Source: Parahoeflea alexandrii
GTDB taxonomy: Bacteria; Pseudomonadota; Alphaproteobacteria; Rhizobiales; Rhizobiaceae
Reading direction: 5' to 3'
DNA length: 64,000 bases
Assembly: GCF_027214025.1 (NCBI RefSeq)
Contig: NZ_JAPWHB010000002.1
Span: forward strand, 310,001 to 374,000
The notes below the pieces were generated by a model, which was given only the letters and a program-made list of their open reading frames with translations, was not told where the DNA came from and did not search any database. Position 1 is the stretch's first letter; each line of letters begins with the position of its first letter. Position numbers and translations under genes: made by a program. Of this stretch, positions 29,263 through 51,304 are shown piece after piece.

Positions 29263-30018
29263 ATGGGCACGCAGGAAAAAGCGGTATTCGAATTCATCGA
29301 GCGGGTCGACAATCACATCACGATTGACGCCCTTCTTGACGACCTCTTGCAAGTCATCGGCGACTACGGCATCGAGCATATGATCTACACCGGCCTGCCG
29401 GTCGGCGACAGCTCGATCGATCCGCTGGTCAAGACCAACCGGTTTCCGCAGTCCTGGTGGAACCGCTACGTCGAGCGGGACTACGCCAGGAAGGATGCCG
29501 TTTGCCAGCAGGTCTATTCAACCATGTCGCCGTTTGCCTGGCACGAGGTCGAACCGCGCTTTTCCTCCCGGGACGGCGCCTTTCAGATCGCCGGCGAAGC
29601 CAGCGAACATGGCCTGGCGGACGGCTATATCGTGCCGGTTTTTTCACGGGACGAATGGCTTTCGGCGCTGTCGTTCGGCGCCCCGAACAAGCTCAAGCTG
29701 AGCCAGAAGGAGCGCGGCGCGCTCAACCTGATGGCGATCTATACCTCTTCCGCCATTGAACGGCGCCAGCAGCGGCGTCCGGTGCGCGGCAGGCTGAGCG
29801 CGCGCGAGCGCGAGGTGCTGCTGTGGACCTCGGCCGGCAAGTCCTGCTGGGATGTCTCGGTCATCCTCGGCATCAGCGAGAAGACCGTGCGCTTCCATAC
29901 CGCGCAGATTCGTGCCAAGCTCAACGCCACCAACACGACCCATGCCGTGGCGCGGGCACTTCAACAAGGCGAGATCTCCCTTGGTCAACTGGCGGAATCG
30001 CTAGGCGACATGCACTAG
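29263..30018 (+). CDS. LuxR-family acyl-homoserine-lactone regulator
   Basis: 251 residues. The N-terminal half is an autoinducer-binding domain with Trp65/66, Tyr69, Asp78 and Trp93 in the positions of the conserved signal-binding residues. The conserved Asp-Pro pair is Asp78-Ala79 here. The C-terminal GerE-type helix-turn-helix is at about 179-225, with LSAREREVLLW and the recognition helix EKTVRFHTAQIRAKL. The luxI gene starts 41 nt downstream, so the two form a pair. It should bind the signal made by its neighbour and control transcription. Confidence 0.92.
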   Translation: MGTQEKAVFEFIERVDNHITIDALLDDLLQVIGDYGIEHMIYTGLPVGDSSIDPLVKTNRFPQSWWNRYVERDYARKDAVCQQVYSTMSPFAWHEVEPRFSSRDGAFQIAGEASEHGLADGYIVPVFSRDEWLSALSFGAPNKLKLSQKERGALNLMAIYTSSAIERRQQRRPVRGRLSAREREVLLWTSAGKSCWDVSVILGISEKTVRFHTAQIRAKLNATNTTHAVARALQQGEISLGQLAESLGDMH

Positions 30019-30032
30019 CGGGCACATCTATC

Positions 30033-30054
30033 TTCCCCTTAAAACCAAGGGGAA
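30033..30054 (+). promoter_or_regulatory. Hairpin that sequesters the luxI ribosome-binding site
   Basis: TTCCCCTT (30033-30040) and AAGGGGAA (30047-30054) are a perfect 8-bp inverted repeat with a 6-nt loop. The 3' arm contains AGGGGA, the Shine-Dalgarno sequence of luxI, whose ATG is at 30060. In the transcript the ribosome site would be paired. Confidence 0.75.
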
Positions 30055-30059
30055 AAGCG

Positions 30060-30722
30060 ATGATCCAAGCCCATGTTGTCAATGCCCAGAACAAGCATCT
30101 CTATGAACGCGAGTTCGAAGAGTTTCTCAGACGCCGCCACGATTACTACGCCGTAGCCAATCGCTGGGTGCCGATCAGTGATGACGGCCTGGAACTGGAT
30201 CCCTTCGACACGCCGGAAGCCACCTACCTGCTCGGAATGCTCGGAGATCGGGTGGTCACCTCGGCACGCCTGATGCCGACGACCATTCCGAACCTCGTCT
30301 CCGAGGAGTTCCCGCACATGTGCGAGAACATCGGCATTCCCTGCAGCCCCGAATGGGCCGACTGGACCCGGACCTACGTGCTGCCCGAGTACCGCGGCGT
30401 CGGCGCCACCGGAATTCTCGGCCAGATGTTCTGCGCCGTGATGGAATACTGCCTCGACGAGGGGATCACCCACACCGGCGGCGTGCTGCAGCAATTCCTG
30501 CTCAAGCGCTGGCTCGACCTTGGCTGGAAAGTGATCCCCGCCGGGATGCCGCGCATCCTGTCGGGCGACTGGTGCCTGGTGGCCTATGTCGAAGTCAACG
30601 AAGCCGCCCTGCATTCAGGCCGGGTGCACGCGTCCGTCGATCGCCCACTGCTGATCCGCAAGGGGACGCAGCTGCCCTTCATCAAGCCATCCCTGACCCC
30701 GGAGATCGGGGCTGCTTCATGA
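30060..30722 (+). CDS. LuxI-family acyl-homoserine-lactone synthase
   Basis: 220 residues from ATG 30060, with AAGGGGA upstream. Residues typical of AHL synthases are present: an Arg cluster at 24-26, Trp36, Asp47 and Asp50, and Arg70 in SARLMP. The usual WExTRF block is replaced by DWTRTYVLPEYRG (100-113), with Asp in place of Glu, so it belongs to a divergent branch. The synthase makes an acyl-homoserine lactone from S-adenosylmethionine and an acyl donor; the acyl group cannot be told from the sequence. Its end overlaps the next gene (ATGA). Confidence 0.9.
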   Translation: MIQAHVVNAQNKHLYEREFEEFLRRRHDYYAVANRWVPISDDGLELDPFDTPEATYLLGMLGDRVVTSARLMPTTIPNLVSEEFPHMCENIGIPCSPEWADWTRTYVLPEYRGVGATGILGQMFCAVMEYCLDEGITHTGGVLQQFLLKRWLDLGWKVIPAGMPRILSGDWCLVAYVEVNEAALHSGRVHASVDRPLLIRKGTQLPFIKPSLTPEIGAAS

Positions 30723-31908: not shown

Positions 31909-32898
31909 TTACCCCAGATCGACCGGCACGCCTGTGGCCAGCGATTTTGCCGCCGCATCAGCTATCAGCTGCGCCGCAAGGCCATCGCGGATGCCCGGTG
32001 ACGGCGCGGTTCCCTCGGTCAGGCAGTCGATGAAGTGCTTCATCTCGGCAAGATAGGCTCCGGCATAGCGCTCGAGGAAGAAATGCTGTGCCGGCGCCGA
32101 GCGGAAACCGGCGCCGCTGGCGATCTCGACATTGTTTTCAGCCACATTGTTGGCCTTGATCAGGCCAAGCGAGCCATGCACCTCGGCCCTCTGGTCATAG
32201 CCGTAGGTGGCGCGGCGCGAGTTGGAGATCTGGCAGATCCTGCCCGAGGCGGTGGTCAGCACGGCAACAGCGGTGTCTACGTCGCCGGCCTCGCCGATCG
32301 CCGGATCGACCAGTGCCGAACCGGTGGCGAAGACCCGCACGATCTCTTCGCCGAGCAGGAAGCGGGCCATGTCGAAATCATGGATCATCATGTCGCGGAA
32401 CAGGCCGCCCGAGCTCTTGATGTAGCTGACCGGCGGCGGCGAAGGATCGCGCGACAGGATGGTGACGAGTTCGACATCGCCGATCTCGCCGGCCTCGATC
32501 CGCGCCTTCATCGAGGCAAAGCCGGGGTCGAAACGGCGGTTGAAGCCGGTCAGGAACGGCACGCCGGCGGCTTCCACCACGCCGATCAGCTCCCTGATCC
32601 GGTCGGCCGACATGTCGACCGGCTTTTCGCAGAAGATTGCCTTGCCGGCCTTCGCACTCTTCTCGATCAGGTCGAAATGCGTGTCCGTCGGCGTGCCGAT
32701 CACCACCGCGTCGATATCCGGGCTGGCGATGATCTCGTCGACCGGTATCGCCGCCGCGCCGGTCCTGGCAGCCAGTGCGTTTGCCGCCTCGGGGAAAGCG
32801 TCGGCGACGGCCGCGATCCGGGCATTGTCGATGCGTTGCAGGCTGCCGGCATGAACCTGGCCGATGCGGCCGCAGCCTAAGAGTCCGATGTTGAGCAT
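31909..32898 (-). CDS. iolG: Inositol 2-dehydrogenase
   Basis: 329 residues, Gfo/Idh/MocA family. The NAD-binding GCGRIG is at 8-13, and the family EKP motif (CEKPVDM) with its catalytic lysine and the HDFDMARF block are present. It oxidises myo-inositol to 2-keto-myo-inositol (inosose) with NAD+. It is the last gene of the minus-strand iol operon, 24 nt after the aldolase. Being closest to canonical IolG among the three family members here, it is the best candidate for the first step. Confidence 0.9.
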   Translation of the reverse strand: MLNIGLLGCGRIGQVHAGSLQRIDNARIAAVADAFPEAANALAARTGAAAIPVDEIIASPDIDAVVIGTPTDTHFDLIEKSAKAGKAIFCEKPVDMSADRIRELIGVVEAAGVPFLTGFNRRFDPGFASMKARIEAGEIGDVELVTILSRDPSPPPVSYIKSSGGLFRDMMIHDFDMARFLLGEEIVRVFATGSALVDPAIGEAGDVDTAVAVLTTASGRICQISNSRRATYGYDQRAEVHGSLGLIKANNVAENNVEIASGAGFRSAPAQHFFLERYAGAYLAEMKHFIDCLTEGTAPSPGIRDGLAAQLIADAAAKSLATGVPVDLG

Positions 32899-32922: not shown

Positions 32923-33759
32923 TTATGGTTGGCCCGGGCCGAATGCGCGGATCACCTCGCGGGCCGCCGCCATCACCGGGTCATGGGTTTCCTTGAGAAT
33001 TGTCACCCGGTCGAAGCGGTCCGGGTCGCGGTTCACCGCCTCCCGCAGAGCGTCGCCGAAGGCCATGCGGAGTTCGGTGCCGATGTTGAACTTGCAGATC
33101 CGCGAGCCGCGAGCCAGCGCCGTGCGCTGCGCCACCGGAACGCCCGATCCGCCATGGATAACCAGCGGCACTTCGGTCAGCGCCTCGATGGCGCGGATGC
33201 GCGGCTCGTCAAGCCCGCCTTCCCTGTCCTGCTGCAGATGCACGTTGCCGACCGAGATCGCCATCGCGTCAACGCGCGTTTCGCGGGCGAAACGGGCGGC
33301 TTCCTCCGGATCGGTGCCAGCGGACGTCTCGCCGCCGGAATAGCCGACGAAGCCGATTTCACCCTCGCAGGAAATGCCGGCCGTGTGCGCCATCTCGGTG
33401 ATCCGCGCTGTCTCCTCGATATTCCGCTCGAGCGGCTTGCGCGATCCGTCGAACATCAGCGAGGTGAAGCCGCTGTCGAGCGCTTCCCTGCATTCCTCGA
33501 AGGTGTAGCCGTGATCGAGATGGGCGACGACCGGAACGGACGCGTTTTCGGCGAGATGGCGGAACATCTTGCCAAGGATCGGCAGCGGCGTGTGCGCCCG
33601 GCAGGAGGGGCCGGCCTGCAGGATCACCGGCAGGCCCTCGGTTTCGGCGGCGGCCACATAGGCGCGCATGTCCTCCCAGCCGAGCGTCACCAGCCCGGCC
33701 ACCGCATAGCCGCCCCTGAGTGCCGGCTGCAGGACTTCGGCGAGTGTTGCAATGCTCAT
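32923..33759 (-). CDS. iolJ: Class II aldolase, IolJ-type (5-dehydro-2-deoxygluconate-6-phosphate aldolase)
   Basis: 278 residues from ATG 33759, overlapping the iolB stop as ATGA. The class II FBA zinc ligands are in AHLDHGYT and GNVH, with CEGEIG, HGGSG and NIGTELR in order. In inositol operons this enzyme splits 2-deoxy-5-keto-gluconate 6-phosphate into dihydroxyacetone phosphate and malonate semialdehyde. General fructose-bisphosphate aldolase cannot be excluded from sequence, but the position between iolB and iolG fixes the likely role. Confidence 0.85.
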   Translation of the reverse strand: MSIATLAEVLQPALRGGYAVAGLVTLGWEDMRAYVAAAETEGLPVILQAGPSCRAHTPLPILGKMFRHLAENASVPVVAHLDHGYTFEECREALDSGFTSLMFDGSRKPLERNIEETARITEMAHTAGISCEGEIGFVGYSGGETSAGTDPEEAARFARETRVDAMAISVGNVHLQQDREGGLDEPRIRAIEALTEVPLVIHGGSGVPVAQRTALARGSRICKFNIGTELRMAFGDALREAVNRDPDRFDRVTILKETHDPVMAAAREVIRAFGPGQP

Positions 33760-34598
33760 TTGAACTTCGCGACCATGTCCTTGATGCCCGGGATCGTCTC
33801 GATCTGGTAGGCATGGGTGGGCTGGAAATACTGGATCAGCGAGCGCTGGCTGAGCCCGCCGAGGATGGTGAAATAATACATCTCGTAGCCCGGCAGCACG
33901 CAGCACGGGTGGTAGCCCTTGTCGAGGCAGATCGTCGAGCCGTCGACGATGTGGTAGGCGTCGCCCGGCTTGTTGTCCTCGCGCTGCAGCATCTGCACGC
34001 CGGAACCGTGATTGGGCCGGAAGCGGAAATTGTAGGTCTCGTCGTGCCGGGTCTCATCAGGCAGACGATCGGTGTCGTGCTTGTGGCTCGGAAAGCCCGA
34101 CCAGCCACCCTGCCCGACGGTGAACAATTCGCTGACCAGAAGCCGTCCGACCTTGCCATGCTGCTTCTGGCCGAGAATGTGCTTGATCTTGCGGTGGGTC
34201 TTGGTGTCGTCGGAGCCGTACTGCACAAGATCGAGCCCGTCGGCGCGCACGTCGAAAGGCTCAAGCACCTTGTCGTATTTTGCCCCGGCGATAAAGGTCT
34301 CGGTCCGGTCGGACACGCAGACGATGGTCACCTTCGCGCCGACCGGCACATAGACGCCTTCCGGCTCGCCGTCCCAGACATCGACGCCGCGATTGCCGAG
34401 CTTGGCGAAGGACACGCCCTCGACACTGACATCGACGCTGCCGGTGGCGGGAACGATGCAGGTCTCGTAGCCGGGCACCTGATACTCGAACGCCTCGCCC
34501 TTCTTCAGCTTGACGATGTTGAAGTAGTTGAGCGGCACGCAGGCATTCTCGGCGTCCACGATCGGCTTGTTCTGGTTGTCATAGGGCGCGATATGCAT
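33756..34598 (-). CDS. iolB: 5-deoxy-glucuronate isomerase
   Basis: 280 residues, the usual length. The cupin-like metal site is visible around GGWSGFPSHKHD (His pair) and YNFRFRP, with CCVLPGYEMYYF near the C-terminus. It converts 5-deoxyglucuronate to 2-deoxy-5-keto-gluconate in inositol breakdown. It lies between iolC (29-nt gap) and the aldolase (4-nt overlap). Confidence 0.95.
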   Translation of the reverse strand: MHIAPYDNQNKPIVDAENACVPLNYFNIVKLKKGEAFEYQVPGYETCIVPATGSVDVSVEGVSFAKLGNRGVDVWDGEPEGVYVPVGAKVTIVCVSDRTETFIAGAKYDKVLEPFDVRADGLDLVQYGSDDTKTHRKIKHILGQKQHGKVGRLLVSELFTVGQGGWSGFPSHKHDTDRLPDETRHDETYNFRFRPNHGSGVQMLQREDNKPGDAYHIVDGSTICLDKGYHPCCVLPGYEMYYFTILGGLSQRSLIQYFQPTHAYQIETIPGIKDMVAKFK

Positions 34599-34627: not shown

Positions 34628-35608
34628 TCAGACTGTGGTCGGGCCGGGATGGGTTGCGAGGAAGGCCTCGAGTTCCTGGGTATCGGGCATGGCAGGAGCG
34701 CAGCCGGGCCGTGAGACGACGATGGACGCACAGGCCGAACCGCGCAGCACCACGTCGCGGATATCGCGGCCTTCCGACAGCGAGGCCAGCAGCCCCGCCA
34801 TGAAACTGTCGCCCGCCCCGGTGGGCTTGAGCGCTTCGACCGGATAGATGCCGGTGCGAATTTCATCGCCGTTCGCAAACGTCACCGCGCCGTCCGGGCC
34901 CATCTTGTAGACCACGATCGCGGCACTCGAGCGCGCCAGCTCACGCGCCTTGTCGAGACCCTTGTCGATGCCGCCGGCCATGAAGCCGAATTCCTCGTCA
35001 TTGCCGACAATGACATCCGCCATCGCGCCCGCGCGCGACAAGACCTCCTCCGCGACCTGCGGGGACGGCCATGAGTAGGGCCGGTAGTCGACGTCGAAGA
35101 TGATCGGCAGACCGGCTGCCCGGGCAAGTTCGAACGCCCGGAACGCGGCCGAGCGCGAGGGCTCGGCGGCAAACACCGTGCCGGCGGTGATCAACGCACC
35201 AAACCGCGCATAATCCACCGCTTCGACATCGGCGAGGTCCATCTGGAAGTCCGCTGCATTGTTGCGGTAGATGACGCTCTGATGCTCCTCGATCCGGCTC
35301 TCGTAGACCGCGAGCGAGGTACGGTATTCACCGGTGATCCTCTTCACATGGCTGCGGTCGACGCCGTAATGATCGAGCTGGTTCAGGCAGTACCAACCGA
35401 CAGCGTCGTCCGACACCCTGGTCACCAGCGCCGCCTTGCAGCCGAACTTGACCAGGCCGGCGGCGATATTGGCGCTCGAGCCACCCATGCCCACCGTCAT
35501 CGAAGCGGCATCACGGGTGCGGGTTCCCGCAGGCTCTGGCGACAGATCCATGCCGACCCGGCCGATGACGAGGAAGTTTCGCGCTCTGATGCCCTCGAAT
35601 ACATTCAT
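34628..35608 (-). CDS. iolC: 5-dehydro-2-deoxygluconokinase
   Basis: 326 residues from ATG 35608, overlapping the stop of the dioxygenase gene as ATGA. It has the PfkB fold: an N-terminal GGSSANIAAGLVKFG substrate block and the C-terminal GAGDSFMAGLL ATP/anion-hole motif with the catalytic aspartate. It phosphorylates 2-deoxy-5-keto-gluconate. Some IolC proteins are fused to a DUF2090 domain; this one is not. Confidence 0.93.
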   Translation of the reverse strand: MNVFEGIRARNFLVIGRVGMDLSPEPAGTRTRDAASMTVGMGGSSANIAAGLVKFGCKAALVTRVSDDAVGWYCLNQLDHYGVDRSHVKRITGEYRTSLAVYESRIEEHQSVIYRNNAADFQMDLADVEAVDYARFGALITAGTVFAAEPSRSAAFRAFELARAAGLPIIFDVDYRPYSWPSPQVAEEVLSRAGAMADVIVGNDEEFGFMAGGIDKGLDKARELARSSAAIVVYKMGPDGAVTFANGDEIRTGIYPVEALKPTGAGDSFMAGLLASLSEGRDIRDVVLRGSACASIVVSRPGCAPAMPDTQELEAFLATHPGPTTV

Positions 35609-36444
35609 GCCCGGCCTTCCGCATTGCCGGCGCGCGCCGCATCGAGCACTTCCGGATAGGGATAATTGAGCCCCAGAAGCTGGCGCATGTCGGGACTCGC
35701 CGCATTGAGGAAGGATTGCGGCAAGGCCGCGGGCATGTCCTCCATCGGCTTGACCCATTTGGGCAGGTACTGGATCAGGATGGCGCTACGGTCATGGTCG
35801 GACCGGTTCGGCATGGCGCAATGCCAGGTCACACCGTAAAACAGCGCTACGTCGCCGGGCTCGCCCAGCATCCGCTCGCAGCGTTCATGGAAGCCGTCCT
35901 CCGCTGTCGGGTAGCGCAGCTGTTTCTGGCTTCCGGGCACGTAAGCCGTGGCGCCGCTTTCTTCGGTGAACGGATCGAGGATCACCGAGACCTGGGCATT
36001 CATCGGAAACGAGCCGTTGAAGCCCATCGGATGGGTCTCGGGCTTGTGGAAATCCCAATAAGGATAATCCACATGCGGCTCCTGCCCCGGCCCGCCCGGA
36101 AGGATCCGGTTGGCGGCGATCGAGCCCATGATGAATTCGGTGCCAAGGAACTTGCGCAGGATATCCATCAGCACGGGATGCGCCGCCATGCGCGAAAACA
36201 CCTCGCCCTTGGCCAGCAGGTTCCAGACCCGGCGCTGCAGGTTGATCTTGCCCTCCTGTTCCGCCGCGCCCTGGAAATGGGTGACCTTCTCCGTCTCGTT
36301 CTCCGAATGCGCCATGACAATGGCGCGGGCCTCGGCAATATCCTCGGGCGTGAACAGGCCGGAAATGGCGACCGCACCGCCGCCATTGAGCAGCTCTTCG
36401 ATGATGATCTGTGGATCGGCCGATTGCGCGGTGAAGCGTTTCAT
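35605..36444 (-). CDS. Phytanoyl-CoA-dioxygenase-like (PhyH) Fe(II)/2-oxoglutarate oxygenase inside the iol operon
   Basis: 279 residues from ATG 36444, 1 nt after the iolD stop, and overlapping iolC by 4 nt. Iron ligands are His124 and Asp126 in PHVDYPYW and His208 in WHCAMPNRS; Arg219 is the expected 2-oxoglutarate anchor, so the enzyme should be active. It lacks any peroxisomal feature. PhyH proteins hydroxylate lipids, N-methyl or O-methyl groups, or phosphonates. Its tight coupling on both sides means it is made with IolD and IolC. A role in trimming a substituted inositol, for example an O-methyl group, is plausible but unproven. Confidence 0.85.
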   Translation of the reverse strand: MKRFTAQSADPQIIIEELLNGGGAVAISGLFTPEDIAEARAIVMAHSENETEKVTHFQGAAEQEGKINLQRRVWNLLAKGEVFSRMAAHPVLMDILRKFLGTEFIMGSIAANRILPGGPGQEPHVDYPYWDFHKPETHPMGFNGSFPMNAQVSVILDPFTEESGATAYVPGSQKQLRYPTAEDGFHERCERMLGEPGDVALFYGVTWHCAMPNRSDHDRSAILIQYLPKWVKPMEDMPAALPQSFLNAASPDMRQLLGLNYPYPEVLDAARAGNAEGRA

Positions 36445-36445
36445 C

Positions 36446-38311
36446 TCAGACACCCTTGCGTTGTTTGGAGCGGGTGGACTCCTGCTCTTCGTGCGCAGCC
36501 CTGACCTTGGCGTTGCCGGTGACATGCGGCGTGCCGACTTCCCACCACGCATGGCCTTCGGTGGTCCAGCCGTCATAGGGATCGACCTTCATGACGATGA
36601 CATGGGTCTTCGGGCTCGCCTTGGCGCGCTTGAACGCTTCGCCCAGCTCCGCCGGGTTGGAGACGGTTTCGGCATTCGCCCCCATCGCCGCCGCGTGCGC
36701 CTCGAAATCGACCGCGAAGGGCTCGGCGACGGTGGGGCAATCGGCGATCAGGTTGTTGAAACTCTCGTTGCCGGTGTTGTTCTGCAGCTTGTTGATGACG
36801 GCAAAGCCGCCATTGTCGAGCACCAGGATTATCAGCTTCCGGTCGCTCAGCACCGAGGAATAGATATCGGAGTTCATCAGCAGGTAGGAGCCATCGCCGA
36901 CAAAGACGATGGTGTCCTTGTCCGGTTCGCGCTCGAACTGGGCGATGCGCGCACCCCATCCGCCGGAAATCTCGTAGCCCATGCAGGAAAAGCCGAACTC
37001 GACGTCGACCGTGCCGATATCGAGCGTGCGCCAGTTGGCGGTCACTTCCGCCGGCAGCCCGCCCGCGGCGGTGACAACCCGGTCGCGCGGATCGCACAGC
37101 GCGTTGACCACGCCGATCGCCTGCGCATAGGAATTGGGCCGGTTGCCATGCGCGACATTGCCCTCGACGTAAGTGTCCCAGGCCTTGCGCTCGGCCTGTG
37201 CAAACGAGGTCCAGTCCCCAGGCACCGCGTAGCTGCCCAGCGCCGCATCGAGCGCCTCGATCGCAAGTTTCGCATCCCCCACCACCGGCAGCGACAGGTG
37301 CTTGGAGGCATCGTGCCGGGCGGCATTGAGGGAAACCAGTTTCGCCGCCTTGTCGAATGCCGTCCACGACCCGGTGGTGAAATCCTGCAGCCTTGTGCCG
37401 ATGGCGATGATCACGTCCGCCTTTTCGGCAACCGCATTGGCGCTGTCCGAACCGGTAACGCCGACGGGACCGATATTGAGCAGGTGCTCGTTCAGGAGGT
37501 TCGCCCTCCCTGCGATGGTTTCGATCACCGGGATCTGCCGGGCCTCGGCGAAGGCGGTCAGTTCCTTGACCGCGCGCGAATACTGCACGCCGCCGCCGGC
37601 GATGATCACCGGCCGTTTCGCAGAGGAGATCGCCGCCGCGGCGTCAGCGATTTCATGTGCATCCGGCGCCTGCCGGCGGATGCGGTGCACCTTCTTCGCA
37701 AACAGCTCGACCGGGTAGTCATAGGCCCAACCCTGCACATCCTGCGGCAGACCGAGGAATGCCGGGCCGCAATCGGCCGGATCGAGCATGGTGGCGATCG
37801 CCGCGGGCAGCGACTGGATGATCTGCGCCGGATGGGTGATGCGGTCCCAATAACGGCTGACCGCCTTGAAGGCATCATTCAAGCCCATGGCCGGATTGCC
37901 GAAATGCTCGAGCTGCTGAAGCACTGGATCGGGCAGCCGGGTGAGAAAAATGTCGCCACACAGCATCAGCATCGGCAGCCGGTTGGCATGCGCCAGCGCT
38001 GCTGATGTCAACAGATTGGCCGTCCCCGGCCCCGCCGATGCCGTGCAGAACATGAAACGCTGCCTGAGCCACTGCTTGGCGTAGCCGGCGGCGGCAAAGC
38101 CCATGCTTTGTTCGTTCTGGCCGCGATAGAGCGGCAGCTCCGCGCGATGATCATACAGCGCCTCGCCCAGGCAGGTGACGTTGCCATGGCCGAAAATGCC
38201 GAAACCGCCGCCGCACAGGCGCATCTCCTCGCCGTCGATCTCGATATACTGGTTGGCCAGGTACCTGATGATGGCCTGCGCCGTCGTCAGCCGAACGGTC
38301 CCGTCATTCAT
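36446..38311 (-). CDS. iolD: 3D-(3,5/4)-trihydroxycyclohexane-1,2-dione acylhydrolase (decyclizing)
   Basis: 621 residues, standard for IolD. It has the thiamine-diphosphate enzyme architecture: an N-terminal Pyr domain with the glutamate in RGQNEQSMGFAA, a middle domain, and a C-terminal PP domain with the motif VGDGSYLLMNSDIYSSV. It opens the ring of the inosose-derived dione. The frame stays open upstream through the next region, but ATG 38311 is the start that fits the family N-terminus. It is the first gene of the minus-strand operon, opposite the LacI-type operator. Confidence 0.95.
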   Translation of the reverse strand: MNDGTVRLTTAQAIIRYLANQYIEIDGEEMRLCGGGFGIFGHGNVTCLGEALYDHRAELPLYRGQNEQSMGFAAAGYAKQWLRQRFMFCTASAGPGTANLLTSAALAHANRLPMLMLCGDIFLTRLPDPVLQQLEHFGNPAMGLNDAFKAVSRYWDRITHPAQIIQSLPAAIATMLDPADCGPAFLGLPQDVQGWAYDYPVELFAKKVHRIRRQAPDAHEIADAAAAISSAKRPVIIAGGGVQYSRAVKELTAFAEARQIPVIETIAGRANLLNEHLLNIGPVGVTGSDSANAVAEKADVIIAIGTRLQDFTTGSWTAFDKAAKLVSLNAARHDASKHLSLPVVGDAKLAIEALDAALGSYAVPGDWTSFAQAERKAWDTYVEGNVAHGNRPNSYAQAIGVVNALCDPRDRVVTAAGGLPAEVTANWRTLDIGTVDVEFGFSCMGYEISGGWGARIAQFEREPDKDTIVFVGDGSYLLMNSDIYSSVLSDRKLIILVLDNGGFAVINKLQNNTGNESFNNLIADCPTVAEPFAVDFEAHAAAMGANAETVSNPAELGEAFKRAKASPKTHVIVMKVDPYDGWTTEGHAWWEVGTPHVTGNAKVRAAHEEQESTRSKQRKGV

Positions 38312-38407: not shown

Positions 38408-38425
38408 TTTGCAACCGGTTGCAAA
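38408..38425. promoter_or_regulatory. LacI-family operator between the divergent iol operons
   Basis: TTTGCAACCGGTTGCAAA is a perfect 18-bp palindrome with the central CG typical of LacI/GalR operators. It lies 24 bp before the plus-strand dehydrogenase gene and 97 bp before iolD. An identical core lies upstream of the LacI gene at 47019-47050. Confidence 0.85.
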
Positions 38426-38449: not shown

Positions 38450-39553
38450 ATGGGAGAGATCGGCATCGGGATCGTCGGCGGAGGCTACATGGGCAAGGCC
38501 CATGCGGTGGCGATGACGACTGTCGGCGCGGTGTTCGACACCGGCCTGCGGCCACGGCTCGAAATGGTCTCCGCAGGCTCGCCGGACTCGGCCGAACGCT
38601 ACCGCAGAGCCTACGGATTCCGGCGCGCCGCGCGCGACTGGCGGGAACTGGTCGCCGACCCGCAGGTCGAGGCCGTCATCATCGCCTCGCCGCAATCCAC
38701 CCACCGCGCCATCGCCGAGGCCGCCTTCGCGCTCGGCAAGCCGGTACTGTGTGAAAAACCCATGGGCGCAAGCCTGGACGACAGCCGCGCCATGGTCGAG
38801 GCGGCGGAAAAAAGCGGCGCGGCCAACATGGTCGGCTTCAACTATATCCGCACACCCGCAAGCCAGTTCGCGCGGCAATTGATCGCCCAGGGCGCGATCG
38901 GCGACATCACCTGGTTCAGAGGCGAACACACCGAGGATTTTCTGGCCGACCCCGAAACGCCTGCTAACTGGCGAACAGATGGCCAGGCCAACGGCACCAT
39001 GGGCGATCTCGCCCCGCACATGATCAACGCAGCACTGGCGCTGATCGGCCCGATCCGCTCTCTGATCGCCGAGATCGAGACCGTTCATACCGACCGTCCC
39101 GGCGGAACGGTCTCGAATGACGACCACGCCCAGATGATGTGCCGGTTCGAAAACGGCGCGATGGGACAGATGCATTTCAGCCGCATCGCCACCGGCCGCA
39201 AGATGGGCTACGCCTACGAGATCACCGGCACCAGGGGCGCGATCCGCTTCGACCAGGAAGACCAGAACGCGCTCTGGCTCTACCGGATGGACGAGCCGGA
39301 AGCCGTGCGCGGTTTCCGCAAGATCCTGACCGGTCCGGCGCACCCCGATTACCTGCCGTTCTGCCAGGGCCCCGGCCACGGCACCGGCTACCAGGACCAG
39401 ATCACCATCGAGGCACGGGATTTCCTCCAAGCGATCGAGACCGGCACGCCGGTCTGGCCGACCTTCCGCGACGGGCTCGCGGTCAACGAAATCGTGGCGG
39501 CGGCCTTCGCCTCCTCACGGACAAGAACCTGGCAAACCATCCAAACGCTCTGA
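38450..39553 (+). CDS. Gfo/Idh/MocA-family dehydrogenase 1
   Basis: 367 residues from ATG 38450 (AGAGG upstream). NAD-binding GIVGGGYMGKAH near 8, the family lysine in CEKPMG at about 106-111 and a distal block TMGDLAPHMINAA with the catalytic aspartate/histidine. The substrate is a polyol or sugar derivative, and inositol isomers or amino-inositols are likely because of the surrounding genes. It starts the plus-strand operon directly behind the LacI-type operator and is followed 12 nt later by the IolE/MocC-like gene. Confidence 0.88.
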   Translation: MGEIGIGIVGGGYMGKAHAVAMTTVGAVFDTGLRPRLEMVSAGSPDSAERYRRAYGFRRAARDWRELVADPQVEAVIIASPQSTHRAIAEAAFALGKPVLCEKPMGASLDDSRAMVEAAEKSGAANMVGFNYIRTPASQFARQLIAQGAIGDITWFRGEHTEDFLADPETPANWRTDGQANGTMGDLAPHMINAALALIGPIRSLIAEIETVHTDRPGGTVSNDDHAQMMCRFENGAMGQMHFSRIATGRKMGYAYEITGTRGAIRFDQEDQNALWLYRMDEPEAVRGFRKILTGPAHPDYLPFCQGPGHGTGYQDQITIEARDFLQAIETGTPVWPTFRDGLAVNEIVAAAFASSRTRTWQTIQTL

Positions 39554-39565
39554 GGGCTCTAGGAC

Positions 39566-40456
39566 ATGACCATCCAAATCGGCAATGCGCCCTGCTCCTG
39601 GGGCGTGGAGTTTCCAAATGATCCGCGCAATCCGGCCTGGCGCACGGTGCTGAGCCAATGCGCGCAAGCCGGCTACACCGGCATCGAGCTTGGCCCGGTG
39701 GGCTACATGCCCGAGGATCCGGCAATTCTTGCCGAGGCGCTTGAAGAGAATGGACTGGAGCTGATCGGCGGCGTGGTGTTCCGCGCCTTCCACGATCCGG
39801 CGCAATGGGACGACGTGATGGATGGTGCGGTCCGCACCTGCAAGGCGCTTCATGCCCATGGCGCACAACATCTGGTGCTGATCGATTCGATCTCGCCCCG
39901 CCGCGCGCCGACCGCCGGCCGCGCCAGCGAGGCCGAGCAGATGGATCAGGCCGAATGGACCGCCTTCCGCGACCGCATCGCCACCGTGGCCAAGCTCGGG
40001 GCGGAGGAGTATGGCTTGACGGTGGGGATCCATGCCCACGCCGCAGGCTTCATCGATTTCGAACCCGAACTCGAGCGCCTGCTCGACGAGGTCGACGAGA
40101 AGATCCTGAAGATCTGCTTCGACACCGGCCATCATTCCTATGCGGGTTTCGATCCGGTCAGCTTCATGAAACGCCATATGAAGCGCATTTCCTACATGCA
40201 TTTCAAGGACATAGACCCGGATGTCAAAGCGAAGGCGATTGCCAACCGCACCGGCTTCTACGATGCCTGCGGGCAAGGAATCTTCTGCAATCTCGGCCAA
40301 GGCGACGTCGATTTCCCCGCCGTGCGGCAGATCCTGCTCGATCACGGTTTCGATGGCTGGTGCACGGTGGAACAGGATTGCGATCCCCTGCTCGACCCCG
40401 ACACGCTGGGCGACGCCACAGCCAACCGCGCCTATCTCAAATCCATCGGCTTCTGA
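39566..40456 (+). CDS. IolE/MocC-like TIM-barrel protein (inosose dehydratase or epimerase)
   Basis: 296 residues, xylose-isomerase-like TIM barrel. The C-terminal half resembles IolE (YMHFKDIDPDV, GQGDVDFPAVRQIL, GWCTVEQDCDP). The N-terminus (GNAPCSWGVEF) differs from the IolE proteins I know and is closer to MocC-type proteins of rhizopine operons. No other iolE is in the window, so this gene may supply inosose dehydratase, or it may epimerise a related keto-inositol. It sits between the two MocA-like dehydrogenases in a tight operon. Confidence 0.75.
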   Translation: MTIQIGNAPCSWGVEFPNDPRNPAWRTVLSQCAQAGYTGIELGPVGYMPEDPAILAEALEENGLELIGGVVFRAFHDPAQWDDVMDGAVRTCKALHAHGAQHLVLIDSISPRRAPTAGRASEAEQMDQAEWTAFRDRIATVAKLGAEEYGLTVGIHAHAAGFIDFEPELERLLDEVDEKILKICFDTGHHSYAGFDPVSFMKRHMKRISYMHFKDIDPDVKAKAIANRTGFYDACGQGIFCNLGQGDVDFPAVRQILLDHGFDGWCTVEQDCDPLLDPDTLGDATANRAYLKSIGF

Positions 40457-40471: not shown

Positions 40472-41629
40472 ATGACAAAGCTCAAATGGGGCATGATCGG
40501 CGGCGGCGAAGGCAGCCAGATCGGCCCGGCGCATAGGCTCGGCGCCGGCCTTGACGGCGAGTTCGAGTTTTCAGCCGGCGCCCTCGATCTCCGGCCCGAT
40601 GCCGGCCGCGATTATGGTAGGCGGCTGGGCCTTGCAACCGACCGCGCCTATGGCGACTGGCGCGAGATGCTTGAGGGCGAGAAAAACCGCGAAGACCGCA
40701 TCGATCTCGTCACCGTCGCCACCCCGAACGCCACCCATTACGAGATCACCAAGGCCTTTCTCGAGGCGGGCTTTCATGTACTCTGCGAAAAGCCGATGAC
40801 CATGACGATTGAACAGGGCGAGGACATCGTCCGCACCGCCCGCGCCACGGGCAAGATCTGTGCCGTCAACTACGGCTACACCGGCTATTCGCTGGTGCGC
40901 CACATGAAGGCGATGGTTGCGCGCGGTGATCTCGGCAGGATCCGGCTGGTCAAGGCCGAGTTTGCCCATGGCCACCATGCGGATGCCGCCGACGCCGACA
41001 ATCCTCGGGTCCGCTGGCGCTATGATCCGGCCAAGGCCGGCGTGTCAGCCCAGTTCGCCGATTGCGGCATTCACGCGCTGCACATGGCGAGTTTCGTCAC
41101 CGGCCAGGAAGTCGAAAAACTCTCCGCCGACACCGTGTCCTGCATTTCGAGCCGAGAGCTCGAGGACGACGCCATGGTCAATTTCCGCATGGACGGTGGA
41201 GTGGTGGGGCGACTCTGGACCTCGTCCATCGCCATCGGCCGCCAGCACGGGCTGACGCTGCAGGTCTTCGGCGAAAACGGCGGATTGCGCTGGGCCCAGG
41301 AACAGCCCAACCAGCTCTACTGGATGCCGCTTGGCGGCCGCCTCCAGACCATCGAGCGCGGCGAGGCAAACCTCTCGCCCGAGGCAGACCGCACCACCCG
41401 CGTCACCATCGGCCACGCCGAAGGGATGCCGCTGGCATTTGCCAATATCTACAAGGATCTCGCCGAAGCCATCCGCGCCGAGAAGCAAGGCCGGAGCATG
41501 GACCCCGCCGCCAATCTCTACCCCCGCGCCGAGGACGGCCTGCGCTCGATGGCCGCCGTCTTCGCGGTGGCGGAATCAGGCAAACGGGACGGGATCTGGG
41601 TCGACGCCCGGCCGCCGATGTTCCGCTAG
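40472..41629 (+). CDS. Gfo/Idh/MocA-family dehydrogenase 2
   Basis: 385 residues. NAD-binding GMIGGGEGSQIG near 7, lysine in CEKPMT at about 105-110, and the second catalytic block FADCGIHALHMA. It is a distinct subfamily member with an extended substrate domain (longer than IolG). Such enzymes act on scyllo-inositol, chiro-inositol or amino-inositol derivatives in rhizobia. The stop codon TAG lies inside a rhizobial intergenic repeat that begins 3 nt earlier. Confidence 0.88.
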   Translation: MTKLKWGMIGGGEGSQIGPAHRLGAGLDGEFEFSAGALDLRPDAGRDYGRRLGLATDRAYGDWREMLEGEKNREDRIDLVTVATPNATHYEITKAFLEAGFHVLCEKPMTMTIEQGEDIVRTARATGKICAVNYGYTGYSLVRHMKAMVARGDLGRIRLVKAEFAHGHHADAADADNPRVRWRYDPAKAGVSAQFADCGIHALHMASFVTGQEVEKLSADTVSCISSRELEDDAMVNFRMDGGVVGRLWTSSIAIGRQHGLTLQVFGENGGLRWAQEQPNQLYWMPLGGRLQTIERGEANLSPEADRTTRVTIGHAEGMPLAFANIYKDLAEAIRAEKQGRSMDPAANLYPRAEDGLRSMAAVFAVAESGKRDGIWVDARPPMFR

Positions 41630-45941: not shown

Positions 45942-46940
45942 TCAGTCTACCGGTCTGAGGGTACCGCGCTCGATCACCTTGCACGGAAACAGCCGGGCTT
46001 CGGGGTAGCGGTCGGGGTTTTCCAGCATCGAGACGATCAGTTCGATCGAGGACGCAATGATCTGGCTGATCGGCTGGCGGATGGTGGTGAGATTGATGTT
46101 TTCCCAGCCCGCCATCTCCATGTCGTTGAGCCCGATGATGCCGATGTCGCCCGGCACCTTCAGGCCGCTGTCGGCAATGGCGCTGAGCGCGCCGATCGAC
46201 AGCACGTCGTCACCGCAGAAATAGGCCTCGGCCGGCTTGTGCTTCAGCAGCGCCAGCATTTCCTTGCGCCCCGCGTTGAACGAATAGGCCTCGGCGAATG
46301 AGTGCCGCACCGAGATCTCCGGATGCTGCGCCAGCTCCTCCATGAAGCCGCGAAAGCGGTCCTGTGTCGAGGTTGCGGATTCCGGCCCGCCGAGAAAGGC
46401 CACATCACGATAGCCGCGGCGGATAAGCTCGCGCGCCGCCATCCGGCCGCATTCGGCGTTGTCGATGCCGACCACGTGCACTTCCGGCGAACTGGCGTAG
46501 CGGCCGAAGCTGTGCACCACCGGCACACCGGCATCGCGGAACGCCTTGGCGAAGCCCGGCGGCAGCGTCGAGGACGCGACCACCACGCCGTCGACCGAAT
46601 ATTGCCGGAGCATGCGGATCGAGTTGGCGGGATCGGTTTCATCCGACAGGTTGACCAGGAGCGGCCGCAAGCCCCGTTCCTGCAGCCCGCGGGTGAACAG
46701 GTCGAACACTTCGAGAAAGATCGGGTTGTGGAAATTGTTCGAGACCAGGCCGATCAGCTTGGTCCGCCCGGTGGTCAGGCTCGAGGCGAGCGCATTGGGA
46801 CTGTAACCGAGTTCAGTCGCGGCCTTCTCGACTTTCCTGCGCATTTTCAGCGACACCGACGCGCCGTCGGTGAAGGTGCGCGAGACCGCCGCGCGCGACA
46901 CCCCTGCCCTTTCGGCGACATCCTTCAGCGTTGGCGGCAT
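45942..46940 (-). CDS. LacI-family transcriptional repressor of inositol genes
   Basis: 332 residues. The helix-turn-helix is at 4-24 (TLKDVAERAGVSRAAVSRTF). The rest is a periplasmic-binding-protein-like effector domain. It is divergent from the sugar importer, with a 32-bp palindrome between them. The same operator lies between the two iol operons 8.6 kb away, so it most likely represses uptake and catabolism and is released by an inositol compound. The effector is not known. Confidence 0.9.
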   Translation of the reverse strand: MPPTLKDVAERAGVSRAAVSRTFTDGASVSLKMRRKVEKAATELGYSPNALASSLTTGRTKLIGLVSNNFHNPIFLEVFDLFTRGLQERGLRPLLVNLSDETDPANSIRMLRQYSVDGVVVASSTLPPGFAKAFRDAGVPVVHSFGRYASSPEVHVVGIDNAECGRMAARELIRRGYRDVAFLGGPESATSTQDRFRGFMEELAQHPEISVRHSFAEAYSFNAGRKEMLALLKHKPAEAYFCGDDVLSIGALSAIADSGLKVPGDIGIIGLNDMEMAGWENINLTTIRQPISQIIASSIELIVSMLENPDRYPEARLFPCKVIERGTLRPVD

Positions 46941-47018: not shown

Positions 47019-47050
47019 ATTCCATTTTGCAACCGGTTGCAAAATGGAAT
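47019..47050. promoter_or_regulatory. 32-bp perfect palindrome: LacI-family operator upstream of the importer
   Basis: The core TTTGCAACCGGTTGCAAA (47026-47043) matches the site in the iol region, and symmetry extends without a mismatch over 47019-47050. It is 79 bp from the LacI start and 81 bp from the binding-protein start, so it can control both. Confidence 0.9.
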
Positions 47051-47130: not shown

Positions 47131-48081
47131 ATGATGTCATTGACCAAGAAGCTCGCTCTGGCGGTTGCGGTGTTCGCAGCGCCGGTGCTGAGCGCTACCA
47201 CGGCATCCGCCGAAGGCGAACGCTACGTGCTCGTCAGCCATGCGCCTGACAGCGACAGCTGGTGGAACACCATCAAGAACGGCATTGCGCTGGCCGGCAA
47301 GCAGATGGGTGTGGAAGTCGAATACCGCAATCCGCCCACCGGCGATCTCGCCGACATGGCCCGCATCATCGAGCAGGCCGCCGCCTCCGGCCCCAACGGC
47401 ATCATCACCACGCTGGCCGATTACGACGTGCTCTCAGGCCCGATCAGGGCCGCCGTCGATTCAGGCGTCGACGTCATCATCATGAACTCCGGCACCCCGG
47501 ACCAGGCCCGCGAGGTCGGCGCGCTGATGTATGTCGGCCAGCCCGAATATGACGCCGGCTATGCGGCAGGCCTGCGCGCCAAGGGCGATGGCGTCGGCTC
47601 GTTCCTCTGCGTCAATCACTACATCTCCTCGCCGTCGTCGACCGAACGCTGCCAGGGCTTTGCCGACGGGCTCGGCGTCGATCTCGGCAACCAGATGATC
47701 GATTCCGGCCAGGATCCGGCCGAAATCAAGAACCGCGTTCTGGCCTACCTCAACTCCAACCCGGACACCGATGCGGTGCTGACGCTCGGCCCCACCAGTG
47801 CCGACCCGACGATCCTGGCGCTGCAGGAAAACGGCATGGCCGGTGAAATCTACTTCGGCACCTTCGACCTCGGCGCCAACATCGTCGAGGCTATCAAGGC
47901 AGGCACCATCAAGTGGGGCATCGACCAGCAGCCCTTCCTTCAGGCCTATCTGCCGGTGGTGGTGCTGACCAACTACCATCGCTACGGCGTGCTGCCGGGC
48001 AACAACATCAATTCCGGCCCCGGCTTCGTGACTGCCGATGGCCTGACGATGGTTGAAAAATACGCGGGCGAATACCGCTAG
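47131..48081 (+). CDS. Sugar/inositol ABC importer binding protein
   Basis: 316 residues with a signal peptide (about 1-27) and the type I periplasmic binding fold of the ribose/inositol family: VLVSHAPDSDSWWNTIKNG near 33 and a PNGIITTLADYD block. ATG 47131 (GGAGGAG upstream). It is the first gene of the importer operon and, with the shared LacI operator, probably binds myo-inositol or a related cyclitol. A hairpin follows the gene. Confidence 0.88.
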   Translation: MMSLTKKLALAVAVFAAPVLSATTASAEGERYVLVSHAPDSDSWWNTIKNGIALAGKQMGVEVEYRNPPTGDLADMARIIEQAAASGPNGIITTLADYDVLSGPIRAAVDSGVDVIIMNSGTPDQAREVGALMYVGQPEYDAGYAAGLRAKGDGVGSFLCVNHYISSPSSTERCQGFADGLGVDLGNQMIDSGQDPAEIKNRVLAYLNSNPDTDAVLTLGPTSADPTILALQENGMAGEIYFGTFDLGANIVEAIKAGTIKWGIDQQPFLQAYLPVVVLTNYHRYGVLPGNNINSGPGFVTADGLTMVEKYAGEYR

Positions 48082-48161: not shown

Positions 48162-49283
48162 ATGTCCGACATGGCTGACGCACCTGCAAGCGACGAGCGC
48201 ATCAAGCAGACATCCGCCCTGCGCAAGGCGCTGATCCGCCCAGAATTGGGTGGAATCTGCGGAACCGTGATCGTGTTCGTGCTGTTTGCGATTTTTGCCG
48301 GCGACAGCGGGATGTTCAATTCGCAAGGCATTCTCAACTGGTCCATCGTCTCGGCGCAGTTCATGATCATCGCGGTCGGCGCCTGCCTCTTGATGATCGC
48401 CGGTGAATTTGACCTCTCGGTCGGCTCGATGATCGGTTTCGCCGGAATGATGATTGCGATCTTCTCGATCACCCTGGGCTGGCCGGTCTGGCAGGCGATC
48501 CTCGTGACCTTCGCGCTGTGTGTCGCCATCGGCGCGCTCAATGGCATTATCGTGGTGCGCACCGGCCTGCCGAGCTTCATCGTCACGCTGGCCTTCCTCT
48601 TCATCCTGCGCGGCTTCACCATCTATTTGCCGCAGTTGATCGAGCGCAAGACCATCATCGGCGGTATCGACAAGGCGGCCGAGGGCGACTGGCTGGCGGC
48701 CCTCTTCGGCGGCAAGATCCTCAAGGGGCTGTTCGCCTGGCTCGGCGACGCCGGCATCATCGCTGTGTTCGAGCGTGGAAATCGCGCCGGGCAGCCGGTG
48801 GTCGACGGCATCCCGATGCTGATCGTCTGGGCGCTCATGCTGGTGGCGTTCGGCCATTTCGTGCTGACCCGCACCAAATTCGGCAACTGGATCTTCGCCT
48901 CCGGCGGCGACGCCCAGGCCGCGCGCTATGTCGGCGTGCCGGTCAACCGGGTGAAGATCCTGATGTTCATGTTCACCGCCTTCTGCGCGACCGTCTTCGC
49001 CACCTGCCAGGTAATGGAGTTTGGCTCGGCCGGCGCCGACCGCGGCCTGCTCAAGGAATTCGAGGCGATCATCGCCGTCGTCATCGGCGGCGCGCTGCTG
49101 ACCGGTGGCTACGGCTCGGTGATCGGCGCGGCACTTGGCGCGCTGATCTTCGGTGTGGTCCAGCAGGGCCTGTTCTTCGCCAATGTCGAAAGCTCGCTGT
49201 TCCGCGTGTTCCTGGGCGTCATCCTGTTGTTCGCCGTGGTGCTCAACACCTATATAAGACGCATGATCACGGGGGAGAGATGA
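48162..49283 (+). CDS. Sugar ABC importer permease
   Basis: 373 residues, about ten membrane segments with the RbsC/FrcC-type block [21 protein letters not shown]. The region around 170-215 is a long hydrophilic insertion compared with RbsC. It forms the channel for the binding protein upstream; start ATG 48162. Confidence 0.9.
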
Positions 49284-49284: not shown

Positions 49285-50073
49285 ATGAATCCCGAACACG
49301 CTCCCCTGATTGAAATGAAGAACATCGAGAAGCATTTCGGCTCGGTGATTGCACTCAACGGCGTCTCGCTGGAGATCTATCCGGGCGAATGCCATTGCCT
49401 CTTGGGCGACAACGGCGCCGGCAAGTCCACCTTCATCAAGACAATGTCGGGCGTGCACAAGCCGACCCGCGGCGAGATTCTGTTCGAAGGCAAGCCGATG
49501 CATTTCGAGGATCCGCGCGACGCCATCACGGCCGGAATCGCCACCGTCTACCAGGATCTCGCCATGATCCCGCTGATGTCGGTGAGCCGCAACTTCTTCA
49601 TGGGCAACGAGCCCGAGAAGAAATTCGGGCCGTTCAAGCTGTTCGACCATGCCTATGCCAACGAGATCACCATGCAGGAAATGCGCAAGATGGGCATCAA
49701 CCTGCGCGGCCCCGACCAGGCGGTGGGCACGCTCTCGGGCGGCGAACGGCAGACCGTCGCGATTGCAAGGGCAGTGCATTTCGGCGCCAAGGTGCTGATC
49801 CTCGACGAGCCGACCTCGGCGCTCGGCGTGCGTCAGACGGCCAATGTGCTCGCCACCATCGACAAGGTGCGCAAGGACGGCATTGCCGTGGTCTTCATCA
49901 CCCACAATGTCCGCCATGCGCTGGCGGTCGGCGACCGCTTCACCGTGCTCAACCGCGGCAAGACGCTGGGGACGGCGCAGCGCGGCCAGATCACGCCGGA
50001 CGAGTTGCAGGACCTGATGGCCGGCGGCCAGGAAATGGTGGCGCTGGAGAGCTCGCTCGGCGGCACCGTCTGA
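49285..50073 (+). CDS. Sugar ABC importer ATP-binding protein (FrcA-type)
   Basis: 262 residues with one ATPase domain; this is the FrcA-type short form, unlike the double-domain RbsA. Walker [10 protein letters not shown], signature [14 protein letters not shown] and Walker [13 protein letters not shown] are present. It starts 1 nt after the permease stop region (ATGAGATG). Confidence 0.92.
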
Positions 50074-50130: not shown

Positions 50131-50326
50131 GTTACAGGTCCGTTTTTGTTTCGTTATTTTCGAATTGCCGCCTCAGAACTGGCATGCTTGAGCTCCGGTC
50201 TGGGCAGTTCGCCCCCATTCTCTCCTGTTAATTCAAACAGATGACCTGTCATAATCGCTTGCCATTTCGCCGCTGACCCAGAATAGTCAGCGCGGGAGAA
50301 ACGAAATGCCAATTGGGAGGAAGATC

Positions 50327-51304
50327 ATGACCTTGAAATCACTGCTTTTGAGCACCATCGCCGGTGTGGCCCTGACAATCGCTGCGCCGCTGGCCGCATC
50401 CGCCGCCGATTGCGAGCGCGGCACGCTGGATGAACGCTATTGCGACGTCGACGGCGACATGATCGCCGACATTCCGACCGATGCGGCCGAGCTCATCGAT
50501 CCGGACACGCTTATCTTCGCCTACACACCGGTGGAAGACCCCGCCGTCTACAAGGAAGCCTGGTCCGACTTCCTGACCCACTTGGACAAGATCACCGGCA
50601 AGAAGTCGGTGTTCTTCCCGGTCCAGTCCAATGCCGCCCAGATCGAAGCCATGCGTTCGGGCCGTCTCCATATCGCCGGCTTCAACACCGGCTCCAACCC
50701 GCTCGCCGTCAACTGCGCCGGCTTCCGTCCCTTCACCATCATGGCATCGGAAGATGGCGGCTTCGGCTACGAGATGGAAATCATCACCTATCCCGGTTCG
50801 GGCGTCGAAAAAGTCGAGGACATCAAGGGCAAGACCATGGCCTTCACCTCGGAGACCTCGAACTCCGGCTTCAAGGCACCCTCGGCACTGCTCAAGGCCG
50901 AATACGGCATGGTCGCCGGCACCGATTTCGAGCCTGCCTTCTCCGGCAAGCATGACAACTCGATACTCGGCGTCGCCAACAAGGATTACCCCGCCGCAGC
51001 CATCGCCAATTCGGTGATGCACCGGATGATCGAGCGCGAGGTGATCAAGGCGGATCAGGTCAAGTCGATCTACAAGTCGCAGACCTTCCCGACCACGGGC
51101 TTCGGCGTCGTCTATAACCTGAAGCCCGAGCTTCAGGAAAAGATCAAGGAAGCCTTCTTCACCTTCCCCTGGGAAGGCTCGTCGCTGAAGAAGGAATTCG
51201 AGAAGTCCAACGAAGGCCAGTTCCTGGAAATGAACTACAAGGATTTCTGGGAAGTCGTGCGCAAGATCGACACGGCCAACGGTGTTCAGTACACCTGCGG
51301 CTAA
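50327..51304 (+). CDS. phnD: PhnD-like phosphonate/phosphorus-compound binding protein
   Basis: 325 residues from ATG 50327, with GGAGG 8 nt upstream (an earlier ATG at 50306 lacks this). A signal peptide covers about 1-27. The family block KKSVFFPVQSNAAQIEAMRSGRLHIAGFNTG is PhnD-like. In PhnD the phosphonate is held by serine/threonine and basic residues in TSETSNSGFKAP. It is the first gene of an operon with PhnC and two PhnE permeases. The substrate might be phosphonate, phosphite, or a phosphate ester. Confidence 0.88.
   Translation: MTLKSLLLSTIAGVALTIAAPLAASAADCERGTLDERYCDVDGDMIADIPTDAAELIDPDTLIFAYTPVEDPAVYKEAWSDFLTHLDKITGKKSVFFPVQSNAAQIEAMRSGRLHIAGFNTGSNPLAVNCAGFRPFTIMASEDGGFGYEMEIITYPGSGVEKVEDIKGKTMAFTSETSNSGFKAPSALLKAEYGMVAGTDFEPAFSGKHDNSILGVANKDYPAAAIANSVMHRMIEREVIKADQVKSIYKSQTFPTTGFGVVYNLKPELQEKIKEAFFTFPWEGSSLKKEFEKSNEGQFLEMNYKDFWEVVRKIDTANGVQYTCG

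Follow-up and report, generated by a model that had tools for sequence, protein, structure and literature searches.

An inositol cluster with an oxygenase gene between iolD and iolC

A stretch of 64,000 nucleotides of Parahoeflea alexandrii DNA (assembly GCF_027214025.1, contig NZ_JAPWHB010000002.1, positions 310,001 to 374,000 of the forward strand; hereafter the window, numbered from its first letter) was found to carry an inositol catabolism (iol) cluster in which a gene for a PhyH-family Fe(II)/2-oxoglutarate oxygenase, the subject of this study, is placed between iolD and iolC. The minus-strand operon runs in the order iolD, oxygenase, iolC, iolB-like gene, class II aldolase gene and iolG; GfoA, an iolE-like gene and GfoB are divergent from it, and a LacI gene and an ATP-binding cassette (ABC) transporter lie farther on. 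The features of the cluster are as follows.

31909..32898, minus strand: iolG, inositol 2-dehydrogenase (TIGR04380, 435.9 bits, cut-off 355)
32923..33759, minus strand: class II aldolase (PF01116), presumed IolJ-like role
33756..34598, minus strand: iolB-like 5-deoxyglucuronate isomerase (PF04962; TIGR04378, 147.7 bits, under the cut-off of 205)
34628..35608, minus strand: iolC, 5-dehydro-2-deoxygluconokinase (TIGR04382, 329.7 bits, cut-off 300)
35605..36444, minus strand: PhyH-family Fe(II)/2-oxoglutarate oxygenase, 279 amino acids (open reading frame, PF05721, alignment and predicted fold)
36446..38311, minus strand: iolD, trihydroxycyclohexane-1,2-dione (THcHDO) hydrolase (TIGR04377, 794.7 bits, cut-off 715)
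38409..38424, no strand: palindrome TTGCAACCGGTTGCAA, predicted LacI-family operator, between iolD and GfoA
38450..39553, plus strand: GfoA, a scyllo-inositol/L-glucose dehydrogenase-type member of the Gfo/Idh/MocA dehydrogenases (closest to 5ya8 among solved structures, E 1e-93)
39566..40456, plus strand: iolE-like dehydratase (PF01261; TIGR04379, 179.3 bits, under the cut-off of 290)
40472..41629, plus strand: GfoB, second divergent Gfo/Idh/MocA dehydrogenase
45942..46940, minus strand: LacI-family regulator
47027..47042, no strand: second copy of TTGCAACCGGTTGCAA, between lacI and the ABC transporter genes
47131..48081, plus strand: sugar-type ABC substrate-binding protein, presumed to serve inositol uptake
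48162..49283, plus strand: ABC permease of the same transporter
49285..50073, plus strand: ABC ATPase of the same transporter

The oxygenase open reading frame runs from an ATG start to a TGA stop, with a single base between the iolD stop and its start, and its terminal ATGA forms a four-nucleotide overlap with the start of iolC. It is adjacent to both genes and probably translationally coupled to them. An earlier reading of this DNA from its letters (the original prediction) had given the same spacing, and the coordinates agree, although its description of the gene as fused into the operon does not hold, these being separate open reading frames.

The protein matched PF05721 (PhyH) over residues 23-221 with 87.4 bits (E 2.2e-24, cut-off 22), and an NCBIfam scan gave no family above cut-off for it. 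Residues H124, D126, H208 and R219 were invariant across 52 aligned oxygenase sequences; from the family motif HxD...H...R we take the first three to be the iron ligands and R219 to be the 2-oxoglutarate arginine, which the original prediction had likewise considered intact. Other invariant polar residues in the alignment were H56, Q58, Q70, R71, R72, N75, D131, H133, N149, Q151, K229 and K232, and so many of them would suit a polyhydroxylated substrate. When an AlphaFold2 model (mean predicted local distance difference test score 85.7, predicted template modelling score 0.87) was searched with Foldseek, all 50 matches listed were Fe/2-oxoglutarate oxygenase entries, largely from natural-product pathways. 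Family score, motif and modelled fold thus all assign the protein to the PhyH family. The closest solved relatives by sequence and by Foldseek (DhiD (8zyb), PrhA, SptF, TlxI/J and FtmOx1; template modelling scores about 0.7-0.8) share about 20% identity with it; DhiD is the best by profile (3.2e-10), but none is close. A chance open reading frame was ruled out by the orthologues, with 61-92% identity, in 80 loci. The same genome holds a second PhyH-family gene (C10:152186-152851), which is not an orthologue, since the oxygenase search finds a single match in the genome.

The operon is kept without the oxygenase in relatives

Four same-genus (Hoeflea) genomes, G001, G013, G014 and G015, carry the same operon without the oxygenase. 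Their iolD-iolC junctions (L141-L144) hold short open reading frames of 14, 20, 15 and 19 codons, which start near the position of the oxygenase start and end in a TGA that shares a four-base overlap with the iolC ATG. The N-terminus of one reads MKSFQTQS (MKRFTAQS in the oxygenase), another ends GNAEGRA exactly as the oxygenase does, and the remaining two end AGRA or AGRT. Similarly, the operon of Ruegeria sp. TM1040 lacks the oxygenase and has a 34-codon in-frame open reading frame, MKRF...NTEGQQ, with a four-base iolC overlap (L169, near 6824-6925). These junction frames of Hoeflea and TM1040 are read as probable in-frame deletion relics of the oxygenase gene. In a tree of iolD and iolC, comprising 19 rather than 21 distinct entries as L005/L021 and L006/L022 look like the same genome twice (zero branch length), the four oxygenase-less Hoeflea fall in three places, one of them beside the strain of the window (support 0.984, 0.855 and 0.976; deeper nodes weak, 0.099-0.564), and so point to at least three losses within Hoeflea.

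The Ruegeria family was sampled through 70 oxygenase-less iolD genes (749-832 bits, the partial iolD of G208 being excluded), of which 45 have iolC next to them, its start set by script to the nearest start codon; these 45 oxygenase-less junctions compare with 8 iolD-oxygenase pairs. Six of the 45 have spacers of 26-127 nucleotides, and the five of 28-127 nucleotides hold a bridging open reading frame that overlaps iolC by four nucleotides (L236, L240, L243, L245 and L250), the 26-nucleotide spacer holding none. The five were not counted as relics, as their residues show no PhyH ancestry.

The oxygenase is therefore not retained wherever the operon is kept, being absent from the four Hoeflea, TM1040, Rhizobium sp. 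WL3 and the 45 Ruegeria-family junctions. Because these relatives keep the operon without it, the enzyme appears to be accessory and not a core enzyme of myo-inositol breakdown, the oxygenase-less operons being assumed to work. This bears out the original prediction, which knew of no role for such an oxygenase in standard inositol catabolism, in the Hoeflea relatives and TM1040.

Outside this absence, the clusters on the TM1040 megaplasmid and a Rhizobium sp. WL3 plasmid have the layout seen here (iolD, iolC, isomerase, class II aldolase, with iolG in TM1040; a divergent Gfo/Idh gene, a TIM-barrel protein, another Gfo/Idh gene, then LacI and an ABC transporter); unlike TM1040 with its relic, WL3 has iolD and iolC one base apart. 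The Phaeobacter inhibens cluster presumably also lacks the oxygenase, judging from its locus numbers.

Orthologues occur in three gene settings

Orthologues were taken from 80 of 100 related loci in species genomes, and the three closest named loci were from Hoeflea. Linkage to iolC was found in 51 of the 80, by their titles alphaproteobacteria and one gammaproteobacterial bin (L081), and of the 50 loci in which the distance was measured, 48 have the oxygenase start lying only a few bases from the end of iolD. Mean identity to the window proteins in the linked loci was 81.5% for the oxygenase (51 loci), 72.1% for iolC (51), 74.7% for GfoA (47), 79.6% for iolD (47) and 82.3% for iolB (49), the oxygenase being better conserved than iolC and GfoA and similar to iolD and iolB.

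A further ten loci, from Luteibacter and Inquilinus (one of these under the label Mycobacterium), gave no iolB, iolC, iolD or iolE match in the vicinity; GfoA adjoins the oxygenase in all ten, and LacI is close in nine, the tenth locus (L079) being 4.4 kb long. The remaining 19 loci are from Burkholderiales, where the oxygenase stands alone: no neighbour from four reference loci was common to more than 7 of the 19, several of the contigs being short, and no iol match above 100 bits was found nearby.

No unassigned neighbour family occurred in more than 6 of 50 loci. A protein of flavin adenine dinucleotide (FAD)/GcvT type (so read without a family scan), present in six loci, was rejected as a part of the system, other copies being 33-34% alike and differently placed. 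Plasmid relatives of the oxygenase fell below 60% identity in 93 of 95 records and at 60-80% in two; the two plasmid contexts inspected were of other records, one having no annotation and one no inositol gene.

GfoA and a shared palindrome accompany the oxygenase in both linked settings

The best solved relative of GfoA is 5ya8, a scyllo-inositol dehydrogenase that is also active on L-glucose (E 1e-93 over 355 residues). When alignments were read against the eight substrate residues of scyllo-inositol/L-glucose dehydrogenase named in the available text of PMC5969746, the matches to K106, Y135, E165, R178, D191, H195 and H318 were kept in the GfoA of Hoeflea and Luteibacter, and Y163 was replaced by His. 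Seven of eight named active-site residues are thus shared with Pl-scyllo-IDH (LgdA) of Paracoccus laeviglucosivorans, a likeness of the partner dehydrogenase and not of the oxygenase.

Either the whole of the perfect palindrome TTGCAACCGGTTGCAA or the 14 bases at its centre occurred in 45 of the 47 GfoA-iolD regions examined (L046 and L076 being without it), and all ten Inquilinus and Luteibacter loci have TTGCAAGCGCTTGCAA between the oxygenase and GfoA. Allowing up to three mismatches, the two TTGCAACCGGTTGCAA sites were the only ones in the window against 0.26 expected, and 2 of 100 shuffles reached two. Genome-wide, the exact palindrome has two copies here, both within the cluster, two in each of G001 and G072, and three in G057, of which the third (C2:102187-102202) lies outside the inositol cluster. 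It has one copy in each of four Inquilinus and Luteibacter genomes, so that the exact palindrome marks only GfoA and the oxygenase there. It is probably the operator of the LacI protein.

Sampled oxygenase carriers have iolD

All of 12 oxygenase genomes, unlinked ones included, have an iolD above cut-off. Among the window's own genome and 60 relatives, the orthologue occurs in 9 of 61, all with iolD (779.8-800.8 bits), and iolD above cut-off occurs in 29; the oxygenase is present in 9 of the 15 genomes whose iolD scores 779.8-817.5 bits and in none of the 14 with only a higher-scoring iolD. In the family of Ruegeria conchae (G072; throughout, genus and family names of numbered genomes were assigned from named loci), 8 of 248 genomes have the oxygenase (E <= 1e-60) and 125 have iolD. 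All eight carriers are iolD-positive with the two genes adjacent, for which a chance of about 0.004 was calculated by hand, ignoring kinship. In the genus of Paraburkholderia xenovorans (G069), the oxygenase was found in 16 of 144 genomes and iolD in 138, with an overlap of 16/16.

Other genes of the cluster and window

The genome's sole iolD above cut-off is the cluster copy, the next match reaching 212 bits. The iolD, iolC and iolG products pass their NCBIfam cut-offs, and the iolB-like (33756-34598) and iolE-like (39566-40456) proteins fall far under theirs; these low-scoring proteins appear to represent a divergent iol sub-type common to Hoeflea and the roseobacters. An IolJ-like aldolase was identified from fitness data in Phaeobacter inhibens, according to the available part of PMC9007349.

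Beyond the iol operon, at 29263-30722 on the plus strand, lie genes for a LuxR-type regulator and for a LuxI-like synthase, both identified by eye and not by a family scan; a LuxI-like gene is also present at that place in L022, L142 and L143. After the inositol transporter, at 50324-54717 on the plus strand, lie a Phn-type ABC transporter (PhnD, C, E, E) and a HAD-family hydrolase, which follow the inositol transporter in 5/5 other same-genus genomes examined. In Ruegeria conchae (L024), relatives of the last PhnE (89%) and of the HAD protein (54%) are on the opposite side of the iol cluster. The set may serve to import an inositol phosphate ester, the hydrolase being its phosphatase.

Proposed function and alternatives

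As the oxygenase pairs with inositol genes where it is linked to them and with GfoA and LacI in two other genera, stands alone in iol-positive Burkholderiales, and has been dropped without disturbing the operon, it is likely to be an accessory entry enzyme acting on an inositol-type cyclitol. The original prediction had proposed such an entry role, and the gene context fits it, the oxygenase staying with a scyllo-inositol-dehydrogenase-like gene and LacI even outside the operon. In the mechanism that we propose, the LacI-type repressor on TTGCAACCGGTTGCAA would be released by an inositol-like inducer, upon which the transporter, dehydrogenases, iol enzymes and oxygenase would be made together. 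The soluble oxygenase, with O2 and 2-oxoglutarate, would then hydroxylate a modified inositol imported alongside inositol. Its most likely target would be the methyl carbon of an O-methyl-inositol, the resulting hemiacetal collapsing to formaldehyde and free inositol, and the Gfo/Idh dehydrogenases would oxidise the freed inositol to inosose for IolE, IolD, IolB, IolC and the aldolase. From the sequences we infer regulator binding, an inositol-like substrate and an accessory role; demethylation was chosen among several chemistries, and was placed first because methyl-inositols, which are major plant solutes, are the commonest masked inositols in nature, not from a result singling it out. O-demethylation is thus a tentative assignment of the chemistry, and to the demethylase explanation as a whole we give a probability of roughly 0.4.

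Several observations weigh against this explanation. The gene context suits other reactions on inositol derivatives as well, and the nearest solved relatives are natural-product oxygenases, not cyclitol enzymes, whose entry titles mention no link to cyclitols. No gene for handling formaldehyde accompanies the oxygenase, since no unassigned neighbour family recurs beyond the level given above (50 loci; genomes were not searched for one). The Burkholderiales oxygenase is without fixed neighbours, and GfoA was absent from 10/10 Burkholderiales oxygenase genomes tested (E 1e-40), so that the oxygenase must work there without it. The complete overlap with iolD in the Paraburkholderia xenovorans genus is uninformative, because iolD occurs in nearly every genome of that genus. 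In addition, in 39 of the 45 oxygenase-less Ruegeria-family junctions iolD overlaps iolC or lies no more than three bases from it, leaving neither spacer nor relic, so that outside Hoeflea and TM1040 some lineages may equally well have gained the gene as lost it.

Among the alternatives, it is unlikely that the enzyme is a hydroxylase of deoxy-inositols, adding the missing hydroxyl to quercitol- or cyclohexanetetrol-type cyclitols, which are algal and plant osmolytes, to give inositol directly. The accessory position and the cyclitol-type partner genes suit this chemistry as they do demethylation, hydroxylation of an unactivated C-H bond is the commonest reaction of such oxygenases, and many carriers are in genera known as marine, but such substrates are less common in soil and plant habitats, from which the carriers Luteibacter, Inquilinus and Burkholderiales come. 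It is quite unlikely that the enzyme uses 2-oxoglutarate to oxidise or stereo-invert an isomer such as scyllo-, chiro- or muco-inositol, or an L-sugar also accepted by GfoA, to yield inosose or myo-inositol: GfoA is of the scyllo-inositol/L-glucose dehydrogenase type and Fe/2-oxoglutarate stereo-inversion occurs in other families, yet Gfo/Idh dehydrogenases, of which there are three in the cluster, do such oxidations without 2-oxoglutarate and O2. We consider it improbable that the oxygenase deaminates inosamines, hydroxylating the amine carbon in the manner of the kanamycin B dioxygenase KanJ to release ammonia and an inosose, which would enter at IolE or be reduced by GfoA. KanJ is a PhyH-type Fe/2-oxoglutarate oxygenase acting on an aminocyclitol-containing molecule, and its pairing with KanK resembles an oxygenase followed by a sugar-type dehydrogenase, as with the Gfo/Idh partner kept in Inquilinus and Luteibacter. 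However, KanJ is biosynthetic and not the closest relative but a weak one (E 0.007, with 35 other distinct solved sequences matching better), a scan of 18 proteins of the cluster and transporter found neither an aminotransferase nor a MocR-type protein, and the oxygenase occurs without GfoA in the ten Burkholderiales genomes.

It is similarly improbable that the gene is a passenger with an unrelated substrate, for example a phosphonate imported by the Phn-type transporter about 14 kb away. The presence of that transporter and the HAD gene in the window, and after the inositol transporter in five same-genus genomes, would be consistent with this, as would the orphan Burkholderiales copies without inositol neighbours. 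With a PhnY-type phosphonate hydroxylase, the partner PhnZ and the phosphonate transporter travel with the oxygenase. Here, the transporter-HAD set is kept in G001 and G013, both without the oxygenase, and is not beside the inositol transporter in the oxygenase carriers G072 and G057. As the transporter thus does not follow the oxygenase, the phosphonate link was set aside as improbable. Moreover, the oxygenase and GfoA stand apart as a palindrome-bearing unit of their own in Inquilinus and Luteibacter.

Relation to known systems

The rhizopine oxygenase MocDEF resembles the role proposed here in acting on a methylated inositol derivative before the inositol pathway, converting 3-O-methyl-scyllo-inosamine (3-O-MSI) to scyllo-inosamine (SI). 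In the excerpts available, MocD is grouped with desaturase-like proteins (PMC2593844), is part of a ferredoxin oxygenase complex (PMC2593844, PMC5132102) and is under MocR control (PMC10107442), unlike the PhyH oxygenase and LacI regulator of this cluster. The original prediction had also named rhizopine as a substrate; this version is less likely, as the oxygenase matches PhyH only, not the desaturase-like type of MocD, and no MocR-type regulator was present among the 18 proteins, whose regulator is LacI-type (the search for moc genes was confined to these 18).

The PhyH family and the inositol pathway are each known, and among the matches listed from the open-licence literature no description of their combination was found: nothing there linked PhyH to iol operons or named a soluble bacterial enzyme that unmasks methyl-inositols. 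One paper with both terms names them in separate rows of a protein table in the portion available (PMC7950203), and neither 'dioxygenase' nor 'PhyH' occurs in the available text of a large iol-cluster survey (PMC9430895).

We put forward, with reservation, that this orthologous group may be an O-demethylase, hitherto unrecognised, which uses O2 to make methylated inositols accessible to the inositol pathway of bacteria, and that its gene may be cleanly droppable, deletions leaving an in-frame mini-gene that keeps the translational coupling of iolD and iolC. The in-frame relics suggest that selection keeps this coupling after the oxygenase is lost. Strain pairs with and without the oxygenase are natural knock-outs, which make its function directly testable. 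If the proposal is true, one small enzyme would explain how bacteria feed methyl-inositols into the textbook pathway.

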